Of a stretch of 64,000 nt of DNA, positions 15,239 to 58,010 are shown in pieces. The position numbers were made by a program, and so were the translations under genes. The DNA is from Hoeflea sp. (GTDB lineage Bacteria > Pseudomonadota > Alphaproteobacteria > Rhizobiales > Rhizobiaceae), in the NCBI RefSeq assembly GCF_030682515.1, contig NZ_JAUXOD010000032.1, forward strand, positions 1 through 64,000, written 5' to 3'. The notes under the pieces were generated by a model. That model had not been told where the DNA came from and made no database searches. It was given only the letters and a program-made list of their open reading frames with translations. The first letter of the stretch is position 1, and each line of letters begins with the position of its first letter.

Positions 15239-15361
15239 GCCTGTGTCTCGCTCGTCTGCAGGGTTCGCCCCAAGGGACGCCTTTCGACGCCCGCTTCGGG
15301 ATCCGTTCTCGATTCTGTCGTTATTGCGTGTCATGACAGAAAGAAACAGGAGTGTACCGTC

Positions 15362-15805
15362 ATGACCCGTTTTGCAATGCTGTCCGTCCCCGCGCTGGTG
15401 CTGCTGATGTCCGCTCCGGCTCTTTCGCAGGAGCCGATACCAAACCGCTTCACCATGGAGAAGACCGAAAACGGCTTCGTCCGCCTCGATACACTGACCG
15501 GCGAGTTGTCGATCTGCTCGGAAAAGTCCGGACAGATGGTGTGCCGGATGTCCGCCGACGAGCGGCGCGCCTTCGAGGAGACCCTGTCGGATCTCTCTGC
15601 CCGCGTCGCGGCCCTGGAACAGCGGCTCGATGCGCTTGCCCCGCCTTCGGGTCTGCAGGATATCCCCGACGAGGCGGAACTCGACCGCGCGCTCGGCGCC
15701 ATGGAGAAGATGATGCGCCGCTTCTTCGGCATGGTCGAGGAGTTGCAGAGGGATTTTGACACCTCGCCCAAGACCCCGCCCGAGCCGATCCCGGACCGGA
15801 CCTGA
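15362..15805 (+). CDS. Uncharacterised secreted protein with coiled coil
   Basis: 147 residues: a Sec signal peptide (ALVLLMSAPALSQ, cleavage near 22), a short domain with two cysteines in ELSICSEKSGQMVCRMS that could form a disulphide, a predicted coiled coil near residues 70-90 (LSDLSARVAALEQRLDAL), and a Pro-rich C-terminus. I do not recognise a named family; similar short periplasmic proteins occur in rhizobia. CAGGAG lies 9 bp before ATG 15362, which decides the start. It is monocistronic as far as can be seen and divergent from the DUF952-pyrD pair. Confidence 0.7.
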   Translation: MTRFAMLSVPALVLLMSAPALSQEPIPNRFTMEKTENGFVRLDTLTGELSICSEKSGQMVCRMSADERRAFEETLSDLSARVAALEQRLDALAPPSGLQDIPDEAELDRALGAMEKMMRRFFGMVEELQRDFDTSPKTPPEPIPDRT

Positions 15806-47735: not shown

Positions 47736-49313
47736 GTGGGGCAGGTTCAGGCAAGGGTGAGGGATGCGGCCGCGGCTGATGGCCTTCGCGCGCGCCTTGA
47801 TCTGACTGCCTTCGATGAGGCCGGCCGCGAAAGGCTGCGCACCCTGCGGCCGATGATCGAGACCGAAGCCCGCATTGCCCTGTCCGCCTTCTTCGAGCGG
47901 CTGCAGAACACGCCCGAGATCGCCTCCCTGTTCACCTCTGCCCGCCAGATCGACAGGCTGGAAGAGCTTGAAGTTGCGCACTGGTCCATCCTGACCGACG
48001 GCCGCTTCGACGGGCTTTATGTCGACCGCTCGGTCATTCTCGGCGAGGTGCGTCAGCGCATCGGCCTCGATGCAGGCTGGTCGATCGGCGGCCACGCGCT
48101 GGTGCTGGAGCGGGTCATCCGCCGCCTCGTGGAGGAAAGCCGCACCGGCCTGTTCCAGAAATTTTCGCGCCGGGATGGCCGCAACCTGCTGGCAGACCGG
48201 CTGGTCGATGTCGTCAAGGCGGCGCTGATCGATATCGACATGCAGGTGTCGCACCGGCTGAGCGAGCAGACGAAGCTGTTCAACCGCCAGCGCGAGGACG
48301 CCATTGCCGAGGGACGTGCCGCCGTCGAGGCCAGTTTCGGTGCGGCCCTGGCGCGACTGGCCGAAGGCGACCTGTCGGTGCGCGTCGAGCCTGAAAGCGT
48401 CGAACCCCACCGCCAGGCCGCTGACAATTTCAACCTTGCGGTCAGCCGCCTCGAAGAGCTTGTTTCGCGATCCGCAGCACGGCTGTCGGACGCGGAACAG
48501 CTGTCCCGGCGCTTGAACGACGACATTCAGGCGGTCCGCGACGACACGGAACGCCACGGCGCGGCAGTTGGCGGCGAGCAGGGTGCGCTTGCTGCGGTCG
48601 CCAGCCGCATCCGTCTCACCGCCGAAACCGCCCGCAAGGCCGAGGCACTGATCGCCGAGGCCCGCCAGAGCGCCGAGGCGGGCGACCGGGTGGTCGAAAA
48701 CGCCATCGATGCGATGGCTGGGGTGGAGAAATCCGCCGAACAGATCGGCAAGATCATCTCGGTGATCGACGAGATCGCGTTTCAGACCAATCTTCTGGCG
48801 CTCAATGCCGGCATCGAGGCCGCGCGTGCCGGTGACGCGGGCCGCGGTTTCGCGGTCGTGGCCACCGAGGTTCGAGCGCTTGCCCAGAGATCGGCAGGGG
48901 CGGCGAGCGAAATCAAGGATCTCGTTTCCGACGCCAAGTCCCATGTCGGGCGCGGCGTCGGCCTCGTCGGCCAGACAAGGTCGGCCATTTCGGGCCTGGT
49001 CGAGCAGGTCGGCAAAATCTCCCAGGCCGTGGCGGGCGTCGGCGCCGAGGCGGACAACCAGGCTCACGAGCTCACCAGTTCGGTGGCGTCTCTTGGCCAG
49101 GCCGTGGGCCTGATCGCCGCAGGCGGCGCGCGCGGGGCGGGCATGGCGGAAGCCGGCGCGGATCTGCAGCTGGTGATCACCGAGCTCGGCGAACAGATCA
49201 GGTTGCACCGGCAGGCCCATCATGCGGGCTTCCAGAGCGTGGAGCTGTCGGGCCGGTCTGCCCCGGCCCCGCTCACCCAGGATCGCACTCCGCAGCGGAG
49301 GTTGGCGCGATGA
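47736..49313 (+). CDS. icpA: Cytoplasmic methyl-accepting chemotaxis protein with globin-like sensor (IcpA/McpE type)
   Basis: 525 residues with no membrane segment, so a soluble chemoreceptor. Residues about 20-180 resemble the protoglobin sensor of globin-coupled receptors ([37 protein letters not shown]). A HAMP-like stretch at about 205-255 contains [11 protein letters not shown]. The signalling hairpin tip is [20 protein letters not shown] near 345-366. The position usually occupied by the haem-ligating histidine just before RIGL is R106, so haem binding is doubtful. It heads the chemotaxis operon as in Sinorhizobium, where it is called IcpA or McpE. Starts at GTG 47736 after ACGGGG. Confidence 0.9.
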
Positions 49314-49379
49314 TATGGCCTCGGGATCACAAGGCCGCGGCACACTGCACAAGTCCATTCACCCGTGAGGATACCTGAC

Positions 49380-49679
49380 ATGTCGTCCACCGACGCAGCC
49401 CCGAAAACACTTAAACTGCCCGAGGTCCTGGACCTCAATGCGGCCAGCAGGCTGCATGAGCAAGTGCTCGCGCACAAGGGCGAGGATATCGACATCGACG
49501 CAACCGACGTGAGCCGGGTTGGCGCCCAGTGCGTTCAGGTTCTGTTGGCCGCCGCGGTGAGCTGGCGCGCCGATGACCAGAGCCTCAAGGTCAAGCAGGC
49601 GTCAGACGCATTCATCAAGACATTGCAATTGCTGGGAATTTCGGATGAAGCCCTGCTTCCAAAGGAGATGCTGAAATGA
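49380..49679 (+). CDS. cheS: Chemotaxis protein CheS (STAS-like)
   Basis: 99-residue STAS-fold protein (KLPEVLDLNAASRLHEQVLA, DIDATDVSRVGAQCVQVLLA). In S. meliloti the same position holds CheS, which binds CheA and speeds loss of phosphate from the sink regulator CheY1. GAGGA precedes ATG 49380; the cheY1 start overlaps its stop by 4 bp. Confidence 0.9.
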   Translation: MSSTDAAPKTLKLPEVLDLNAASRLHEQVLAHKGEDIDIDATDVSRVGAQCVQVLLAAAVSWRADDQSLKVKQASDAFIKTLQLLGISDEALLPKEMLK

Positions 49680-50041
49680 AGAAGAAGGTTCTCACGGTCG
49701 ATGACTCGCGGACCATCCGCAACATGCTGCTGGTGACGCTCACCAACGCCGGCTTCGATACGGTTCAGGCGGAAGACGGCATCGAAGGCCTCGAGGTGCT
49801 CGAAGAGTCCAATCCGGACGTCATCGTCACCGACATCAACATGCCAAGGCTCGACGGCTTCGGCTTCATCGAGGGCGTCCGTCAGAACGACCGCTTCCGG
49901 GCGATCCCGATTCTGGTGCTGACCACGGAAAGCGACGCAGAAAAGAAGAACCGTGCCCGCGAAGCCGGTGCGACAGGCTGGATCGTCAAGCCTTTCGATC
50001 CCTCCAAGCTTATCGCAGCGATCGAGCGTGTAACCGCCTGA
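49676..50041 (+). CDS. cheY1: Single-domain response regulator CheY1
   Basis: 121-residue CheY. Acidic pair D9/D10 (LTVDDSRT), phospho-acceptor D53 in VIVTDINMPRLDG, T/S switch in VLTTESD, and lysine in WIVKPFDP. In rhizobia CheY1 acts mainly as a phosphate sink for CheA, while CheY2 controls the motor. Located between cheS (4-bp overlap) and cheA (13-bp gap). Confidence 0.95.
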   Translation: MKKKVLTVDDSRTIRNMLLVTLTNAGFDTVQAEDGIEGLEVLEESNPDVIVTDINMPRLDGFGFIEGVRQNDRFRAIPILVLTTESDAEKKNRAREAGATGWIVKPFDPSKLIAAIERVTA

Positions 50042-50054
50042 CAGGATCTGTCCC

Positions 50055-50306
50055 ATGGATATGAATGAAATCAAGGAGATCTTTTTCCAGGAATGCGAGG
50101 AACAGCTCGCAGAACTGGAATCCGGTCTGCTCAGAATCAATGACGGTGATTCCGATCCGGAAACGGTCAATGCCGTGTTCCGCGCAGTGCATTCGATCAA
50201 GGGCGGCGCAGGCGCCTTCGGTCTCGATGACCTCGTCTCCTTTGCGCACGTGTTCGAGACGACACTTGATTGCGTTCGATCCAACAAGCTCCAGACATCG
50301 TCTTAA
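50055..50306 (+). CDS. cheA: CheA N-terminal fragment: P1 helices A-C, ended by an in-frame stop
   Basis: 83 residues starting MDMNEIKEIFFQECEEQLAE, the normal start of rhizobial CheA. The P1 (HPt) phosphorylation site H46 is intact in AVHSIKGGAGAFG. The frame ends at TAA 50304-50306 after SNKLQTSS. The same frame then continues without interruption as LLKVMLKSADVLADLT, which in intact CheA is P1 helix D. So one nonsense codon, not a frameshift, divides the gene. This piece lacks helix D and is unlikely to fold as a full four-helix bundle alone. See the matching CheA C-terminal entry. Confidence 0.85.
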   Translation: MDMNEIKEIFFQECEEQLAELESGLLRINDGDSDPETVNAVFRAVHSIKGGAGAFGLDDLVSFAHVFETTLDCVRSNKLQTSS

Positions 50307-50318
50307 CTGCTCAAGGTC

Positions 50319-52349
50319 ATGCTCAAATCGGCCGATGTCCTGGCCGACCTTACGGCCGCCTCCCGCGATGGCGGCAGTGTCGACAAGTCCCGCACCTCGG
50401 ACCTGGTCAAGGAACTGGAAGCCTTTGCCAAGGGGACACCCTTGCCCGTGGCAGCTCCGGTTGCAGAACCGGTCCGGCAGGAGGCCCCGGTGGCCGTGGC
50501 TGCTCCCGCAGCCCCGGAGCCGACAGACGACGCTGGATTTCAGCCGGTTCCCTTCAGCTTCGATGATTTTGGCGATGAAGCCGACGAGGCGACCCCTGCG
50601 GAAGCCGAGGGCGGCGGGCGGTCCGTGTTCACGGTGCGCTTCAAGCCGAGGTCGGATCTTTACGCCAAGGGCAATGAAGCCGTCCTTCTGATGCGCGATC
50701 TCGCCAAGGTTGGCGATCTCCAGGTGATTTGCGAAATTGACGCGCTTCCGCCCATCGATCAGCTCGATCCGGAAGGCGCCTATTTCTCCTGGCTGATCCG
50801 CGTCGAGACCGACAAGGACGAGGACGCCATTCGCCACGTGTTCGAGTTCGCCGAATGGGATTGCCTGTTCGAGGTCAAGCCCGGCGCCGACGAGGCGCTG
50901 TTTTCGGTCCATACGGCTTCGGGCGAGGATCTGCCCATGGCGCCGGTGCCGTTCGACCTTTCCATGCTCGACGAAGAGCCGGCAGCGGCGGCTCCCGTCG
51001 CCGACGCGCCGGCCCCGGCTGTAGTCGCGGCCGTCTCGGTCGAGGAGGCGCCGCTCGCGCCGCCAAGCCTGCCGCGGGCTGAAAAGGCCATTGCCGCGGA
51101 AGCGGAGAAGAAGGAAGCCGCGGTGGCGGGCGTTCCCGCAGCCCCCCAGACCATCCGCGTCGACCTGGACCGGGTCGACCGGCTCATCAACCTGGTGGGC
51201 GAACTCGTCATCAACCAGGCAATGCTCGCGCAAAGCGTGGTCGAGAACGAGTCCGGCGGTTCGTCGGCGATCAATCTCGGCCTCGAGGAACTCCAGCAGC
51301 TGACCCGGGAGATCCAGGACAGCGTCATGGCCATCCGCGCCCAGCCGGTCAAGCCGGTGTTCCAGCGCATGGGCCGCATCGTCCGCGAAATCGCCGACAT
51401 GACCGGCAAGAATGTGCGCCTGGTCACCGAAGGCGAGAACACCGAGGTCGACAAGACGGTCATCGACAAGCTCGCCGAGCCGTTGACCCACATGATCCGC
51501 AACGCGGTCGATCACGGGCTCGAAACCCCCGAGAAGCGCCTTGCGCTCGGCAAGAATGCCGAAGGCGTCCTGCGCCTTACCGCAAAGCACCGCTCCGGCC
51601 GCATTGTCATCGAGATCGCCGACGATGGCGCAGGCATCAACCGCGAGCGCGTCCGCTCCAAGGCCATCGAGAACGGCCTCATCGCTCCGGATGCGAATCT
51701 GAGCGACGAGGACATCGACAACCTGATCTTCCATCCCGGCTTCTCCACCGCCGAAAAGCTGTCGGATATTTCCGGCCGCGGCGTCGGCATGGATGTGGTC
51801 AAGCGTTCCATCCAGCAGCTGGGCGGCCGCATTTCGATCACCTCCAAGCCGGGCAAGGGCTCGATCTTCACCATGAGCCTGCCGCTCACCCTCGCCGTCC
51901 TCGACGGCATGGTGGTCACGGTCGCAAACCAGACCCTGGTGGTGCCGCTCACCGCCATCGTCGAAACCTTGCAGCCCGAAAAGCAGGACATCCATGCCTT
52001 CGGACCGACCCAGCGGCTCATCGCCATCCGCGACACCTTCTGTCCGCTGGTCGATGTCGGGCATATCCTCAACTTCCGCTCCTACCTTGCCAATCCGATC
52101 GACGGCGTGGCGCTGCTGGTGGAATCGGAAGGCGGCGGCCAGCGGGCGCTCATGGTCGATGCGATCCAGGGCCAGCGCCAGGTCGTCATCAAGAGCCTCG
52201 AGGCCAACTACACCAATGTCCCGGGGATTGCCGCGGCAACCATCCTCGGCGACGGCCGGGTGGCCTTGATCCTTGACGTCGATGCGGTGGTCACGGCTTC
52301 GCGCGGCCATGCGCTGAGTTCCGAAATGACGCTTTCGGCGACCGGGTAA
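50319..52349 (+). CDS. cheA: CheA C-terminal part (helix D of P1, P2-P5), same frame after the in-frame stop
   Basis: 676 residues if started at ATG 50319, 12 bp after the TAA. It begins in P1 helix D (MLKSADVLADLTAAS). A CheY/CheB-binding P2-like segment follows (VFTVRFKPRSDLYAKGN), then the P3 dimerisation hairpin (VDRLINLVGELVINQAML), the P4 kinase with HMIRNAVDHGLE, IADDGAGINRERV and GRGVGMDVVKRS, and the CheW-like P5 from about residue 525. Kinase motifs are complete, but the phosphorylated His is on the upstream fragment. It corresponds to a CheA-short-like form. There is no good ribosome-binding site; re-initiation after the stop is possible. Confidence 0.88.
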   Translation: MLKSADVLADLTAASRDGGSVDKSRTSDLVKELEAFAKGTPLPVAAPVAEPVRQEAPVAVAAPAAPEPTDDAGFQPVPFSFDDFGDEADEATPAEAEGGGRSVFTVRFKPRSDLYAKGNEAVLLMRDLAKVGDLQVICEIDALPPIDQLDPEGAYFSWLIRVETDKDEDAIRHVFEFAEWDCLFEVKPGADEALFSVHTASGEDLPMAPVPFDLSMLDEEPAAAAPVADAPAPAVVAAVSVEEAPLAPPSLPRAEKAIAAEAEKKEAAVAGVPAAPQTIRVDLDRVDRLINLVGELVINQAMLAQSVVENESGGSSAINLGLEELQQLTREIQDSVMAIRAQPVKPVFQRMGRIVREIADMTGKNVRLVTEGENTEVDKTVIDKLAEPLTHMIRNAVDHGLETPEKRLALGKNAEGVLRLTAKHRSGRIVIEIADDGAGINRERVRSKAIENGLIAPDANLSDEDIDNLIFHPGFSTAEKLSDISGRGVGMDVVKRSIQQLGGRISITSKPGKGSIFTMSLPLTLAVLDGMVVTVANQTLVVPLTAIVETLQPEKQDIHAFGPTQRLIAIRDTFCPLVDVGHILNFRSYLANPIDGVALLVESEGGGQRALMVDAIQGQRQVVIKSLEANYTNVPGIAAATILGDGRVALILDVDAVVTASRGHALSSEMTLSATG

Positions 52350-52360
52350 GGATTGGTCTG

Positions 52361-52816
52361 ATGCGGGTTTCCGGCAATGACATGTGCGAATTGATTGCGT
52401 TCACGATTGGCGAGCAGGAGTTCTGCGTCGAGGTCATGGCGGTGCGCGAGATTCGCGGATGGACGCCCGCGACGCCCCTGCCGCATTCGCCCGGCTATGT
52501 CCGTGGCGTGATCAACCTGCGCGGGGTCGTTCTGCCGGTCATGGACATGTCGCTGAGACTGGGAATGGAACCGACCGATCCGTCCCAGCGCCATGTCATC
52601 ATCGTCATCCAGGTCGGCGGGCAGCTTGTCGGGCTGCTGGTCGACGCGGTCTCCGACATCCTCATGGTGCCTGCGGCCAGCATTCAGCCGCCACCGGACA
52701 TGAGCAAGGAAATGGACCGGGACTTCGTCCAGGGCATCATCCCGATCGAAGGCCGCATGGTTTGCCTCATCCAACTTAACGCCCTTTTCGGGACCATTGA
52801 AAGCGAGGCAGCATGA
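52361..52816 (+). CDS. cheW: Chemotaxis coupling protein CheW
   Basis: 151 residues forming two SH3-like barrels that link receptors to CheA P5. Family stretches are ELIAFTIGEQEFCVEVMAVR, RGVINLRGVVLPVMDMSLRL and GLLVDAVSDIL. AAGGA precedes ATG 52361, 11 bp after cheA. Its stop overlaps the cheR start by 4 bp. Confidence 0.96.
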   Translation: MRVSGNDMCELIAFTIGEQEFCVEVMAVREIRGWTPATPLPHSPGYVRGVINLRGVVLPVMDMSLRLGMEPTDPSQRHVIIVIQVGGQLVGLLVDAVSDILMVPAASIQPPPDMSKEMDRDFVQGIIPIEGRMVCLIQLNALFGTIESEAA

Positions 52817-53694
52817 GCGCCGCAGCCATACTCCAATCAGGCCGGCCGGACGATTGCCTGGTCAACGGGGAATATCCGCTGACCCGCAAGGACCTCTCCG
52901 AAATCGCAGCCATGATCTATTCCGATGCCGGCATTGCACTCAACGAGACCAAGGCGTCGCTCGTCTATTCGCGCCTGTCCAAGCGGCTGCGCCAGATCGG
53001 CATGGGAAGCTTCAGGGAATATTGCGCGCTGATCAGCTCGTCGGATGGCGTCGCCGAACGCCGCGAAATGCTGAGCTTCCTGACCACCAACTTCACCCGG
53101 TTCTTCCGGGAAAACCACCATTTCGATCATCTCCGCACCGAGGTGCTGCCGGGGCTTCTGACCCGCGCCAAGGCCGGTGGGCGGGTTCGGATCTGGTCGG
53201 CGGGATGCTCGGACGGGCAGGAGCCCTATTCGATCGCGCTGACCGTGCTCGGCTTGGCGCCCAATGCCGCGACCCTCGACATCCGCATCCTCGCCACCGA
53301 CATCGACCCGAAGATCATCGCCCAGGCGAAGGCGGGCATCTATGACGGCCAGTCGATCGAGACCGTCGATGCGGCCATGCGCAAGCAATGGTTCACCCAG
53401 ACGCCGGAGAAGCGCTGGCAGGTGGGCGATCAGGTCAAGCAGCTGATCACGTTCCGCGAACTCAACCTCATGGCCCAGTGGCCGTTCCGGGGGCCCTTCG
53501 ACGTGATCTTCTGCCGCAACGTGGTGATCTATTTCGACGAGCCCACCCAGGCCAAGATCTGGGTCCGCTATGCGGATCTGCTGCCGCCGGGCGGGCACCT
53601 CTATATCGGACACTCGGAGCGTCTTTCCGGCGAGGGCAAGGATCGTTTCGACAACACGGCCATCACAACCTATCGCCACAAGGGGAGGATCTGA
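52813..53694 (+). CDS. cheR: Chemotaxis protein methyltransferase CheR
   Basis: 293 residues. N-terminal helical domain with [18 protein letters not shown]-dependent methyltransferase domain with [34 protein letters not shown] and [11 protein letters not shown], which are diagnostic of CheR. It methylates glutamates of chemoreceptors for adaptation. Coupled to cheW by ATGA. Confidence 0.97.
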
Positions 53695-53699
53695 CCATC

Positions 53700-54767
53700 A
53701 TGACAGCAAAAGCGCGCGTACTTGTTGTCGACGATTCACCCACCATGCGGGGCCTGATCAAGGCCGTGCTGCGCAGTGACCCGGGCATCGAAGTCGTTGG
53801 CGAGGCCGGGGACGCCATGGAGGCCCGCAACGCCATCAAGCTGCTCAATCCGGACGTGATCACGCTCGATGTCGAGATGCCCAACATGAACGGCATCGAG
53901 TTCCTCGACAAGATCATGAAGCTCAGGCCGATGCCGGTGATCATGGTCTCGACGCTGACCAACCGGGGCGCCGAAGCGACCCTCGCGGCGCTGGAACTGG
54001 GCGCCTTTGATTGCGTCGGCAAGCCGCTGCCGGGCGATCCGGCGCCGTTCTCCCACCTCGCCGAAACGGTCAAGGCTGCGGCGCGCTCGCATCGCCACCG
54101 CCCCGACTCGGTCGTGCAGGAGAGCTCCGCATCGTCGGCCCCGGCCGACACGGCACCGAGCGATTACCAACCGTCGCGCAAGATCATCGCCATCGGCGCC
54201 TCCACCGGTGGTGTCGAGGCCCTGATTGCGGTTCTCAGCAAGTTTCCGGCCAACTGCCCCCCGACGGTCGTGACCCAGCACATGCCGGCGACCTTCACCA
54301 AGAGCTTCGCCGAACGCCTCAACCGGCTCTGCGCACCGCAGGTCAAGGAAGCCGAAGATGGCGACCGGTTGGAAATCGGCCGGATCTATCTGGCGCCGGG
54401 CGGCGGCCAGCATCTCGAAATCTCCAACGCGCTGGCGCCCCGCTGCATTCTCACCGACGGCGATCCCGTCAACGGGCACCGGCCATCGGTGGATGTCCTG
54501 TTCAATTCCGTCTCCGCTCTCGCCGGCGCCAAGGCCGTCGGCGTCATCCTGACCGGCATGGGGCGTGACGGGGCCGCCGGTCTTCTCAGGATGCGCCAGG
54601 CGGGCGCCACGACCATCGGTCAGAACGAGAAAACCTGCGTGGTCTACGGAATGCCGCGGGTGGCTCAGGAGATCGGCGCGGTCGGGATCCAGTTGCCGCT
54701 AAATCTGATTGGCGAGGAAATCCTCAAGTCAACAACAACAACCTCTCGCAAAGATAGGGTCGCGTGA
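53700..54767 (+). CDS. cheB: Protein-glutamate methylesterase/response regulator CheB
   Basis: 355 residues. The receiver has [10 protein letters not shown] and D57 in [13 protein letters not shown]. The C-terminal methylesterase has the serine in [11 protein letters not shown], histidine in [10 protein letters not shown] and aspartate in [10 protein letters not shown]. It removes methyl groups from receptors when phosphorylated by CheA. I start at ATG 53700, 5 bp after cheR; the earlier in-frame ATG is inside cheR. Confidence 0.96.
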
Positions 54768-55156
54768 TGTCCATTGCACAAAAAATCAAGGTTCTCATAG
54801 TTGATGACCAGGTGACCAGCCGTCTCCTGCTCGGCGATGCGCTTCAGCAGCTCGGCTTCACCCAGATCACCGTCGCCGGTGATGGGGAGCAAGGCGCCAA
54901 GATCATGAGCCAGCAGCCGCACCATCTGGTCATTTCGGATTTCAACATGCCGAAAATGGATGGCCTGGGCCTGTTGCAGGCTGTGCGCACCAATCCTGCG
55001 ACCAAGCGTGCGGCATTCATCATGCTGACCGCTCAGGGCGACAGGGCCCTGGTGCAGAAGGCCGCCGCCCTTGGCGCGAACAATGTTCTCGCCAAGCCCT
55101 TCACCATTGAAAAGATGAAAGCAGCCATCGAGGCGGTGTTTGGGGCGCTGAAGTGA
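54767..55156 (+). CDS. cheY2: Response regulator CheY2 (motor-binding)
   Basis: 129-residue CheY. D13/D14 (LIVDDQVTS), phospho-acceptor D58 in [12 protein letters not shown], threonine in MLTAQGD, lysine in VLAKPFTI. In S. meliloti the second CheY of this operon is the one that slows the motor by binding FliM. The ATG overlaps the cheB stop by one base; a GTG three bases earlier is the alternative start. cheD overlaps its stop. Confidence 0.95.
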
Positions 55157-55707
55157 CAGCAGACGTTCAGTTTCGCAGAATCCACGTCATTCAGGGTGAA
55201 TTCAAGGTCACCAATGACCCCGAAGTGGTGCTGTCAACGATCCTGGGCTCCTGTATCGCCGCCTGCATGCGCGATCCGGTGGCTGGTGTCGGCGGCATGA
55301 ATCACTTCCTGCTGCCCGGCCAGAGCAATGGGTCGGGCGGCGAGGCCACCAGATACGGCGTTCATCTGATGGAGCTCCTGATCAACGGACTGTTGAAGAA
55401 GGGCGCCCGTCGCGAGCGGCTGGAAGCCAAGATCATCGGCGGCGCCAAGACGATCTCCGGCTTCTCCAATGTCGGCGAGAAGAACGCCGAATTCGCGCAC
55501 CAGTTCCTGAGCGACGAAGGCATCCGCATCGTCGGCAGCAATACCGGCGGCGATGTCGGCCGCAAGCTCGAGTACTATCCCGTCAGCGGCCGCGCCCGCC
55601 AGTACCCGCTGTCCGGCGCTGAAACGCAAAAGACCGTGGCACTCGAAACCGCGCCGCCCAGAATTGTTGTACCGAAGCCGGCGGACACGTCGATCGAGTT
55701 TTTCTAA
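55153..55707 (+). CDS. cheD: Chemoreceptor glutamine deamidase CheD
   Basis: 184 residues. The deamidase site is C34 in [11 protein letters not shown] and H51 in [10 protein letters not shown], with the conserved [17 protein letters not shown]. CheD deamidates receptor glutamines and tunes their activity. GTG start at 55153 overlaps cheY2 by 4 bp, so expression is tied to it. Confidence 0.95.
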
Positions 55708-55718
55708 GGAGTTCGCCC

Positions 55719-56111
55719 ATGTCCACATCGTCTTTTGATCGCGGCGGCGACCTTCACGAACCTCTGAACGACGTGATGTCGAGGATCAGTTCGGAACTGG
55801 AAGACGTGGCCGAGCTGATAGAACGGCTCGAGCCGCTTCTGTCCAACGGCCGCTCCACCGAGTTCCTGGCATCGCCCGATCACATGCGGGTCATGCAGGG
55901 CATCGACCTGGCCGTTCAGAAAGCCCGCGGCCTGGCGGGATTCATCGACGGCATCGGCGAGCGGCTCGATTCCGATCAGCTTATCGACATCACCACGGCG
56001 CTGAGCCTGATCACCCTGGAAGACATGAAGCGGCGCCTGAAGGCCTCGATCCACGCCCCGCCATCGGCCGAGCTCTACCAGAAAGCCTCCGGCGATCTCG
56101 AGTTCTTCTGA
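55719..56111 (+). CDS. cheT: Chemotaxis protein CheT
   Basis: 130-residue, all-helical protein at the position of CheT in the S. meliloti operon. It contains D63-L-A-V-Q67, a DxxxQ motif like the CheZ/CheX phosphatase signature, in QGIDLAVQKARGL. S. meliloti CheT has been linked to signal termination and adaptation. AAGGAG precedes ATG 55719. Last gene before fliF. Confidence 0.87.
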   Translation: MSTSSFDRGGDLHEPLNDVMSRISSELEDVAELIERLEPLLSNGRSTEFLASPDHMRVMQGIDLAVQKARGLAGFIDGIGERLDSDQLIDITTALSLITLEDMKRRLKASIHAPPSAELYQKASGDLEFF

Positions 56112-56318: not shown

Positions 56319-58010
56319 ATGAATCTGTTGAACCAGCTGTCCCTCATCTCCAAGAACCTGGCCGGCCTGGGTCAGGCGAAACTGTTGGCCCTGGGCGTGG
56401 TCGGTGCCATGGCCGTCATGCTGATCATCGGCTCGGCGATCTTCCTCAACAAGCCGACCCGCGAGACGCTCTACATCGGCCTCTCGGGCGACGACGTCAA
56501 TCAGATCAGCCAGGTGCTTGCCGAAGCCAATATCGATTTTGCCGCCGGCGCCGACGGCTCTTCCGTCACGGTGCCTGCCGGGCTTACCGGCCGGGCGCGG
56601 ATGCTGCTGGCCGAACGCGGACTGCCCTCGTCGAACACGGCCGGCTACGAATTGTTCGACAAGGTGGGATCGCTGGGCCTCACCAGCTTCATGCAGGAGA
56701 TCACCCGGGTCCGCGCGCTCGAGGGTGAAATCGGCCGGACCATCCAGGCCATCAACGGCATATCTGCGGCGCGCGTCCACATCGTCATGGCCGACCGCGG
56801 CAATTTCCGCCGCGGAGACCAGCGGCCATCCGCCTCCGTGATGGTGCGGACGGGCAACAACCTCGCGCCGCGGACCGCCGATTCGATCAGGCACCTGGTC
56901 GCGGCCTCCGTGCCGGGGTTGAATGTCGATGAAGTGACCGTGCTCGACGCCACCGGCAAACTGCTCGCCGCTGGCGACGACTTCTCCAATTCGAACCTCA
57001 ACCGCTCGCTCTCGGTCGTCCAGCTGGTCCAGAACGAAGTCGAGGCGAATATCGAGAAGGCCCTGGCGCCGTTCCTGGGAATCGAGAACTTCAGGGCCAG
57101 CGTCAACGCCCAGGTCAACACCGACACCCAGCAGATCCAGGAAACCGTCTTCGATCCCGAATCCCGGGTCGAGCGTTCGATCCGCGTGACGCGGGAAAAC
57201 CAGACCTCGAACCAGTCCTCGACCGACGCGCCCGCGACCGTTCAGCAGAACATCCCCGATCAGGATCCGGGCGCCGCAGGAGCCGCCGGACCGCAATCGA
57301 GCGAACTGGCGGAGCGCAAGGAAGAACAGACCAATTTCGAGATCAACACGAAAATCGTCTCGACGGTGCGCAACAGCTACGCCATCGAGGGCTTGTCGAT
57401 CGCCGTCGTGGTCAACAAGGAGCGGATCACCGCCATGCTTGGCGGGACGCCGACACCCGAGCAGATCGCCGCCTATATCACCGAACTCGAGCAGATCGTG
57501 GCCACGGCCGCGGGTGTGGACACCGAGCGGGGCGACCGCGCCTCGGTCACCACGATGGAGTTCCTGGCCAGCGAACTGCTTGCCGACACCGCGACGAAAC
57601 CCGGCTTCCTCGACACCCTGCAGACCCAGCTCGGCACCATCATCAATGCGCTCGCCTTCATCATCGTGACGGTCCTGCTGATCCTGTTCGGGTTCCGGCC
57701 CTTGCTTCGCAACACCAAGGTCCTGGCCGGCGGCGTGCGCGAGATCGAGGACGGGATGGAAGACGGCCTGGAACTGCCCGATTTCTCCCCCGCGGCCCTC
57801 GGCGGCTCCAATGCCATGCCGATGGAAGGCTTCGGCGCGGATTTCGGTTTCGGCGAGGAAAGCGATTCGGAACTCGACATGGAAGAGTCCGGCACCTTCA
57901 ACCGTCGCGTCAAGGAAGGTCCGGAGCGGAGGCTCGCTCGCATGGTCGAAATCAACGAAGAGCGTGCGGCCAAGATCCTCCGCAGCTGGGCCTCCAGCGA
58001 AGCGGCCTGA
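56319..58010 (+). CDS. fliF: Flagellar MS-ring protein FliF
   Basis: 563 residues: one N-terminal membrane helix at about 20-45 (LLALGVVGAMAVMLIIGSAI), the ring-building-motif region (ETLYIGLSGDDVNQISQVL, SFMQEITRVRALEGEIGRTI, HIVMADRGNFRR), a long periplasmic linker, a second helix near 440-465 (INALAFIIVTVLLILFGF) and a C-terminal FliG-binding tail. FliF is the first-assembled part of the basal body. The 207-bp gap after cheT is GC-rich and shows no obvious promoter. Confidence 0.96.
   Translation: MNLLNQLSLISKNLAGLGQAKLLALGVVGAMAVMLIIGSAIFLNKPTRETLYIGLSGDDVNQISQVLAEANIDFAAGADGSSVTVPAGLTGRARMLLAERGLPSSNTAGYELFDKVGSLGLTSFMQEITRVRALEGEIGRTIQAINGISAARVHIVMADRGNFRRGDQRPSASVMVRTGNNLAPRTADSIRHLVAASVPGLNVDEVTVLDATGKLLAAGDDFSNSNLNRSLSVVQLVQNEVEANIEKALAPFLGIENFRASVNAQVNTDTQQIQETVFDPESRVERSIRVTRENQTSNQSSTDAPATVQQNIPDQDPGAAGAAGPQSSELAERKEEQTNFEINTKIVSTVRNSYAIEGLSIAVVVNKERITAMLGGTPTPEQIAAYITELEQIVATAAGVDTERGDRASVTTMEFLASELLADTATKPGFLDTLQTQLGTIINALAFIIVTVLLILFGFRPLLRNTKVLAGGVREIEDGMEDGLELPDFSPAALGGSNAMPMEGFGADFGFGEESDSELDMEESGTFNRRVKEGPERRLARMVEINEERAAKILRSWASSEAA

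Follow-up and report, generated by a model that had tools for sequence, protein, structure and literature searches.

The window analysed here, i.e., the whole stretch of 64,000 nucleotides, harbors a chemotaxis operon whose genes and neighbours are listed in Table 1. A further frame of 104 codons (49365-49679) did not return any match in the NCBIfam search.

Table 1. Features of the chemotaxis locus, in window coordinates.
Feature	Coordinates	Strand	Remarks
Methyl-accepting chemotaxis protein	47736..49313	+	MCPsignal match
CheY-type response regulator	49676..50041	+	NCBIfam match
cheA 5' piece	50055..50306	+	83 codons, most of P1 (Hpt) with the phospho-acceptor His46; ends with TAA
In-frame TAA in cheA	50304..50306	+	Asp or Glu codon in the relatives compared
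cheA remainder, same frame	50307..52349	+	end of P1, P2, P3 (H-kinase_dim), P4 (HATPase_c), P5 (CheW)
CheW	52361..52816	+	NCBIfam match
CheR	52813..53694	+	NCBIfam match
CheB	53700..54767	+	scores 440 bits, over the curated cut-off; start codon read
Second CheY-type receiver	54764..55156	+	NCBIfam match
CheD	55153..55707	+	above the curated cut-off
CheT-like protein	55719..56111	+	E 2.8e-36, below the curated cut-off
FliF, first of the flagellar genes	56319..58010	+	above the curated cut-off

The cheA frame starts with ATG 50055, encounters an in-frame TAA at 50304-50306, and then proceeds in the same frame up to the final TAA at 52347-52349. The division of cheA by an in-frame stop had been claimed in a sequence-only reading of this DNA, and its description turned out to be accurate when the coordinates were re-read. 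The same reading had considered the kinase part and the rest of the operon to be intact; the downstream 676-residue piece matches H-kinase_dim, HATPase_c, and CheW in Pfam, and the neighbouring genes are open frames. This piece is the product that would derive from ATG 50319, a possible in-frame restart located 12 nucleotides past the TAA. The 83-residue piece matches the Pfam Hpt profile with an E of 6.6e-17 over positions 1-65 of 84. In spite of the interruption, the gene can be recognised as a cheA orthologue by its protein match to relatives; a single chain embedding the Hpt histidine together with the dimerisation, ATPase, and CheW-like domains is not encoded, since the TAA at 50304-50306 interrupts it.

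The CheA of an intact relative aligns across the break to solved P1 chains (e.g., residues 3-107 of 1i5n), and the 83-residue fragment alone aligns to residues 3-83 of a P1 chain. Because the intact protein aligns through the break, the TAA is located within P1, as had been proposed, presumably between helices C and D. His46 is conserved in 90/90 aligned CheAs (the one under study included). In the Hpt search of this genome, cheA was the only match at E 0.001, and the 676-residue query found one other place, with a match of 40 residues (E 4.7e-4). No second chemotaxis kinase gene was thus found in the draft genome. On the opposite strand, a 766-codon open frame (window 50010-52310, minus strand) runs antisense to cheA; an antisense frame of 778 codons is present also in a congener, referred to as G014. 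Such a frame over cheA is probably a shadow frame that results from a codon use rich in GC.

The alignment of close relatives, which the sequence-only reading had suggested as a check, disclosed a sense codon at 50304 in all cases. An Asp or Glu codon occupies the position in 80/80 fetched loci (the best 80 of 424 relatives from the protein search), all of them open upstream, and in 15/15 congeners with a full-length CheA match. The genus sample comprised 17 other genomes, the two remaining ones being 75-77% complete and giving weak hits only. The two sets overlap, so that 96 sequences, own included, correspond to 90 distinct ones; the 89 other distinct aligned CheAs have 71 Asp and 18 Glu at the stop position. 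These 15 congeners share 74-93% identity with the 676-residue piece, and the closest named relative by CheA among the best 80 of 424 is Hoeflea sp. BAL378 (88% over 676 residues), which suggests a marine bacterium of the Hoeflea type within the Rhizobiaceae. The stretch around cheA also aligns with G014. In a family-wide draw, a CheA match at E 1e-150 was found in 125/247 genomes, own included; the matches of 112 of the 124 other genomes cover the stop position, with no stop reported there, and those of the remaining 12/124 cover later parts of cheA only. Three entries of this draw contain an internal stop, i.e., the genome under study and two TAG cases (G237 and G184). The latter two were rejected as further examples of interrupted CheAs, the TAG being located past the final domain, a short distance ahead of the position at which the protein of congener G118 ends. 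Hence, as far as the sampling goes, the TAA is private to this genome. The sequence-only reading had listed four possible explanations; a recent nonsense mutation and a sequencing error survive this comparison, whereas a functional split and a maintained readthrough are unsupported, because every relative compared has a sense codon at that position.

In order to describe the state of the gene on both sides of the stop, cheA was compared with that of G014, the nearest congener (93% over 676 residues). The dN/dS is 0.074 overall, with values of 0.023 for residues 1-83, 0.060 for residues 85-145, 0.151 for the linker/P2, and 0.022 for P3-P5. These low values are no sign of selection acting after the stop arose, since most of the divergence precedes it. 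Counting the codon changes private to this cheA where four near congeners agree gave 5 non-synonymous and 24 synonymous changes; the same count in the other four genomes gave 3:30, 5:38, 0:19, and 6:37 (non-synonymous:synonymous), so that the genome under study has the highest ratio among these five, although the counts are small. At alignment columns without gaps where the other 89 CheAs all agree, the number of private replacements is zero. Judging from these sequence comparisons, cheA shows little decay besides the TAA; therefore, the stop should be either recent or not real.

Of 81 reference genes of G014 searched in the window, 25 did not give any hit, and cheA was the only internally broken gene among the 56 compared. 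The survey raised four flags, i.e., cheA, two 5' extensions, and one gene truncated at the edge of the window. In a larger survey (103 of 258 G014 reference genes, stops being ignored when they fell within the N-terminal 35 or the C-terminal 15 residues), cheA was again the only internally broken gene of 103, and the two further flags were 5' extensions ahead of Pfam domains. A single private stop in a gene that is otherwise intact is what a recent nonsense allele looks like, and we would give an about even chance to the view that an ordinary cheA has recently acquired a nonsense mutation.

The possibility that a leaky TAA is read through, preserving some full-length CheA, might find some support in the low dN/dS on either side of the stop. 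Moreover, a published survey (PMC7918605) makes the case that in-frame stops with dN/dS <1 occur widely among bacteria and may undergo readthrough. In that survey, however, the stops used were common to two or more species in order to limit artefacts, and the stop in cheA is common to no relative compared; the likeness, i.e., an in-frame stop and a low dN/dS, is thus accompanied by the difference that the cheA stop is private, and a conservation of the stop in orthologues, as would be expected of a programmed readthrough, was not found. In addition, none of the 14 tRNAs parsed from 1.93 of the 4.67 Mb is a suppressor, and the RNA around the stop does not fold better than shuffled sequences (z 0.12). 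Readthrough appears very unlikely. A genome-wide reassignment or suppression of stop codons is not supported either, given the absence of a suppressor among the 14 parsed tRNAs and the few stray stops.

The TAA might also be a base-calling or consensus error of the draft assembly, the real cheA being intact. The assembly sequence agrees with such an error as well as with a real mutation, and errors always look "fresh". The assembly (4.67 Mb) is fragmented into 144 contigs, the window representing bases 1-64000 of contig 36, although the TAA lies away from the contig ends (50304 of 75583). A second private nonsense codon exists in nuoF, a conserved gene, where a TAG replaces the Tyr found in 16/16 congener copies inspected; both cheA and nuoF are otherwise open. 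A pair of such codons in one assembly is slightly easier to explain by errors than by two genuine mutations of recent date, and error stays a close rival because both stops are fresh and private. The nuoF TAG is located on contig C5 near 810 (coordinates of locus L131), in the only copy above the family cut-off.

On the other hand, 1.93 Mb of this genome (1.13 Mb and a further 0.79 Mb) was scanned, independently of any reference, for in-frame stops flanked by coding signal on either side. The scan listed 23 + 23 candidates, among which nuoF was the sole clear stray stop in an otherwise intact gene; it is about 78% sensitive at interior positions of test genes, misses the cheA site, and is blind to frameshifts. 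The peptides flanking the 46 candidates were inspected by eye and five places were looked at further; most of the 46 are apparently ordinary gene ends or non-genes, with C83 36373 among the less clear ones. Their density resembles that of the control (23 in 1.13 Mb vs. 6 in 0.315 Mb of G014); with stricter settings, a previous scan had yielded 8 candidates in 0.369 Mb of this genome and likewise 8 in 0.315 Mb of G014. Moreover, none of the ABC-domain matches listed for this genome (150 scored) contains an internal stop, the same being true for those listed for G014 (142 scored), and no frameshift within coding sequence was found in the 103 orthologues compared with G014. A widespread assembly error was thus rejected, the candidate stops being without a broad excess over the G014 control. 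A base-calling or consensus error in cheA has, in our opinion, a substantial probability that falls somewhat short of an even chance.

Another of the 46 candidates lies on contig C77, where, near 55359 (about 15280-15770 of locus L248), a fragment contains an in-frame TAG and frame changes. Judging from its motifs, we take it to be alpha/beta hydrolase-like; it is an ordinary decayed gene.

If the recent nonsense mutation is real, translation from ATG 50055 would halt after 83 residues, and the product would keep His46 and lack the end of P1. Any re-initiation at ATG 50319 would yield a kinase with P2-P5 but without His46, akin to the E. coli CheA-short. This restarted piece should have no proper substrate, since the genome search gave no other Hpt match. 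The cell is predicted to be flagellated and non-chemotactic, or else to have a severely reduced CheA output; swimming without chemotaxis is predicted because the genome contains flagellin (5 matches) and MCP (13 matches) genes, none of which has an internal stop. Overall, the cheA stop is an ordinary event, either an isolated nonsense mutation or an error in base calling; most likely it marks a null or CheA-short-like allele of recent origin, or else such an error. In the first case, the strain would be naturally cheA-null or deficient in P1 and, by prediction, non-chemotactic, which affects the use of its genome in chemotaxis studies; in the second, the cheA and nuoF stops are caveats on the assembly. 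Neither outcome changes what is known about CheA.

The last explanation to be considered is a functional two-piece CheA, in which the 83-residue P1 fragment would pair with the restarted 676-residue piece supplying the last part of P1. The in-frame ATG so close to the stop would be in agreement with this idea, and a precedent for a divided CheA exists in R. sphaeroides, i.e., CheA3/CheA4 (PMC3591291). Nevertheless, ATG 50319 corresponds to an ancestral Met codon kept in 89/90 CheAs, so that nothing has been gained, and the AAGG preceding it is just 2 nucleotides away and occurs within the coding sequence of most of the 80 relatives. The break falls within the P1 domain rather than between domains, and the split is common to no relative compared (the 80 loci, the 15 congeners, and the family draw). 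A two-piece CheA of this kind, with a split HPt within one domain, where the His-bearing 83-residue fragment would fold with the P1 remainder of the restarted kinase, is highly improbable. A conserved split CheA was rejected, the stop being present in no relative compared. Garzon and Parkinson reportedly worked on liberated P1 (1996). Among the matches listed in the open-licence literature, no title or abstract deals with this strain or with a split inside the P1 domain of CheA.

In R. sphaeroides (PMC3591291), one of CheA3/CheA4 is without P1 and the other without P3 and P4, while P5 anchors each of them to the cluster; the likeness to the locus described here consists in the phospho-acceptor and catalytic parts residing on separate chains. 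CheA3/CheA4 divides whole domains, while in the present gene the division is made by a single codon inside P1 and the small piece is without P5; a pair of proteins that share out complete domains between them, and that relatives have retained, is not what was found. The E. coli CheA-short arises from an internal start and is made alongside full-length CheA (PMC1447658). The likeness is that the restart product would be without the phospho-acceptor part of P1 and with P2-P5; however, E. coli has full-length CheA beside CheA-short, and here no full-length product is expected. Lastly, with respect to the CheA of Hoeflea and of the other Rhizobiaceae, the gene is the same kinase gene of the che operon, the difference being one private in-frame stop in P1.
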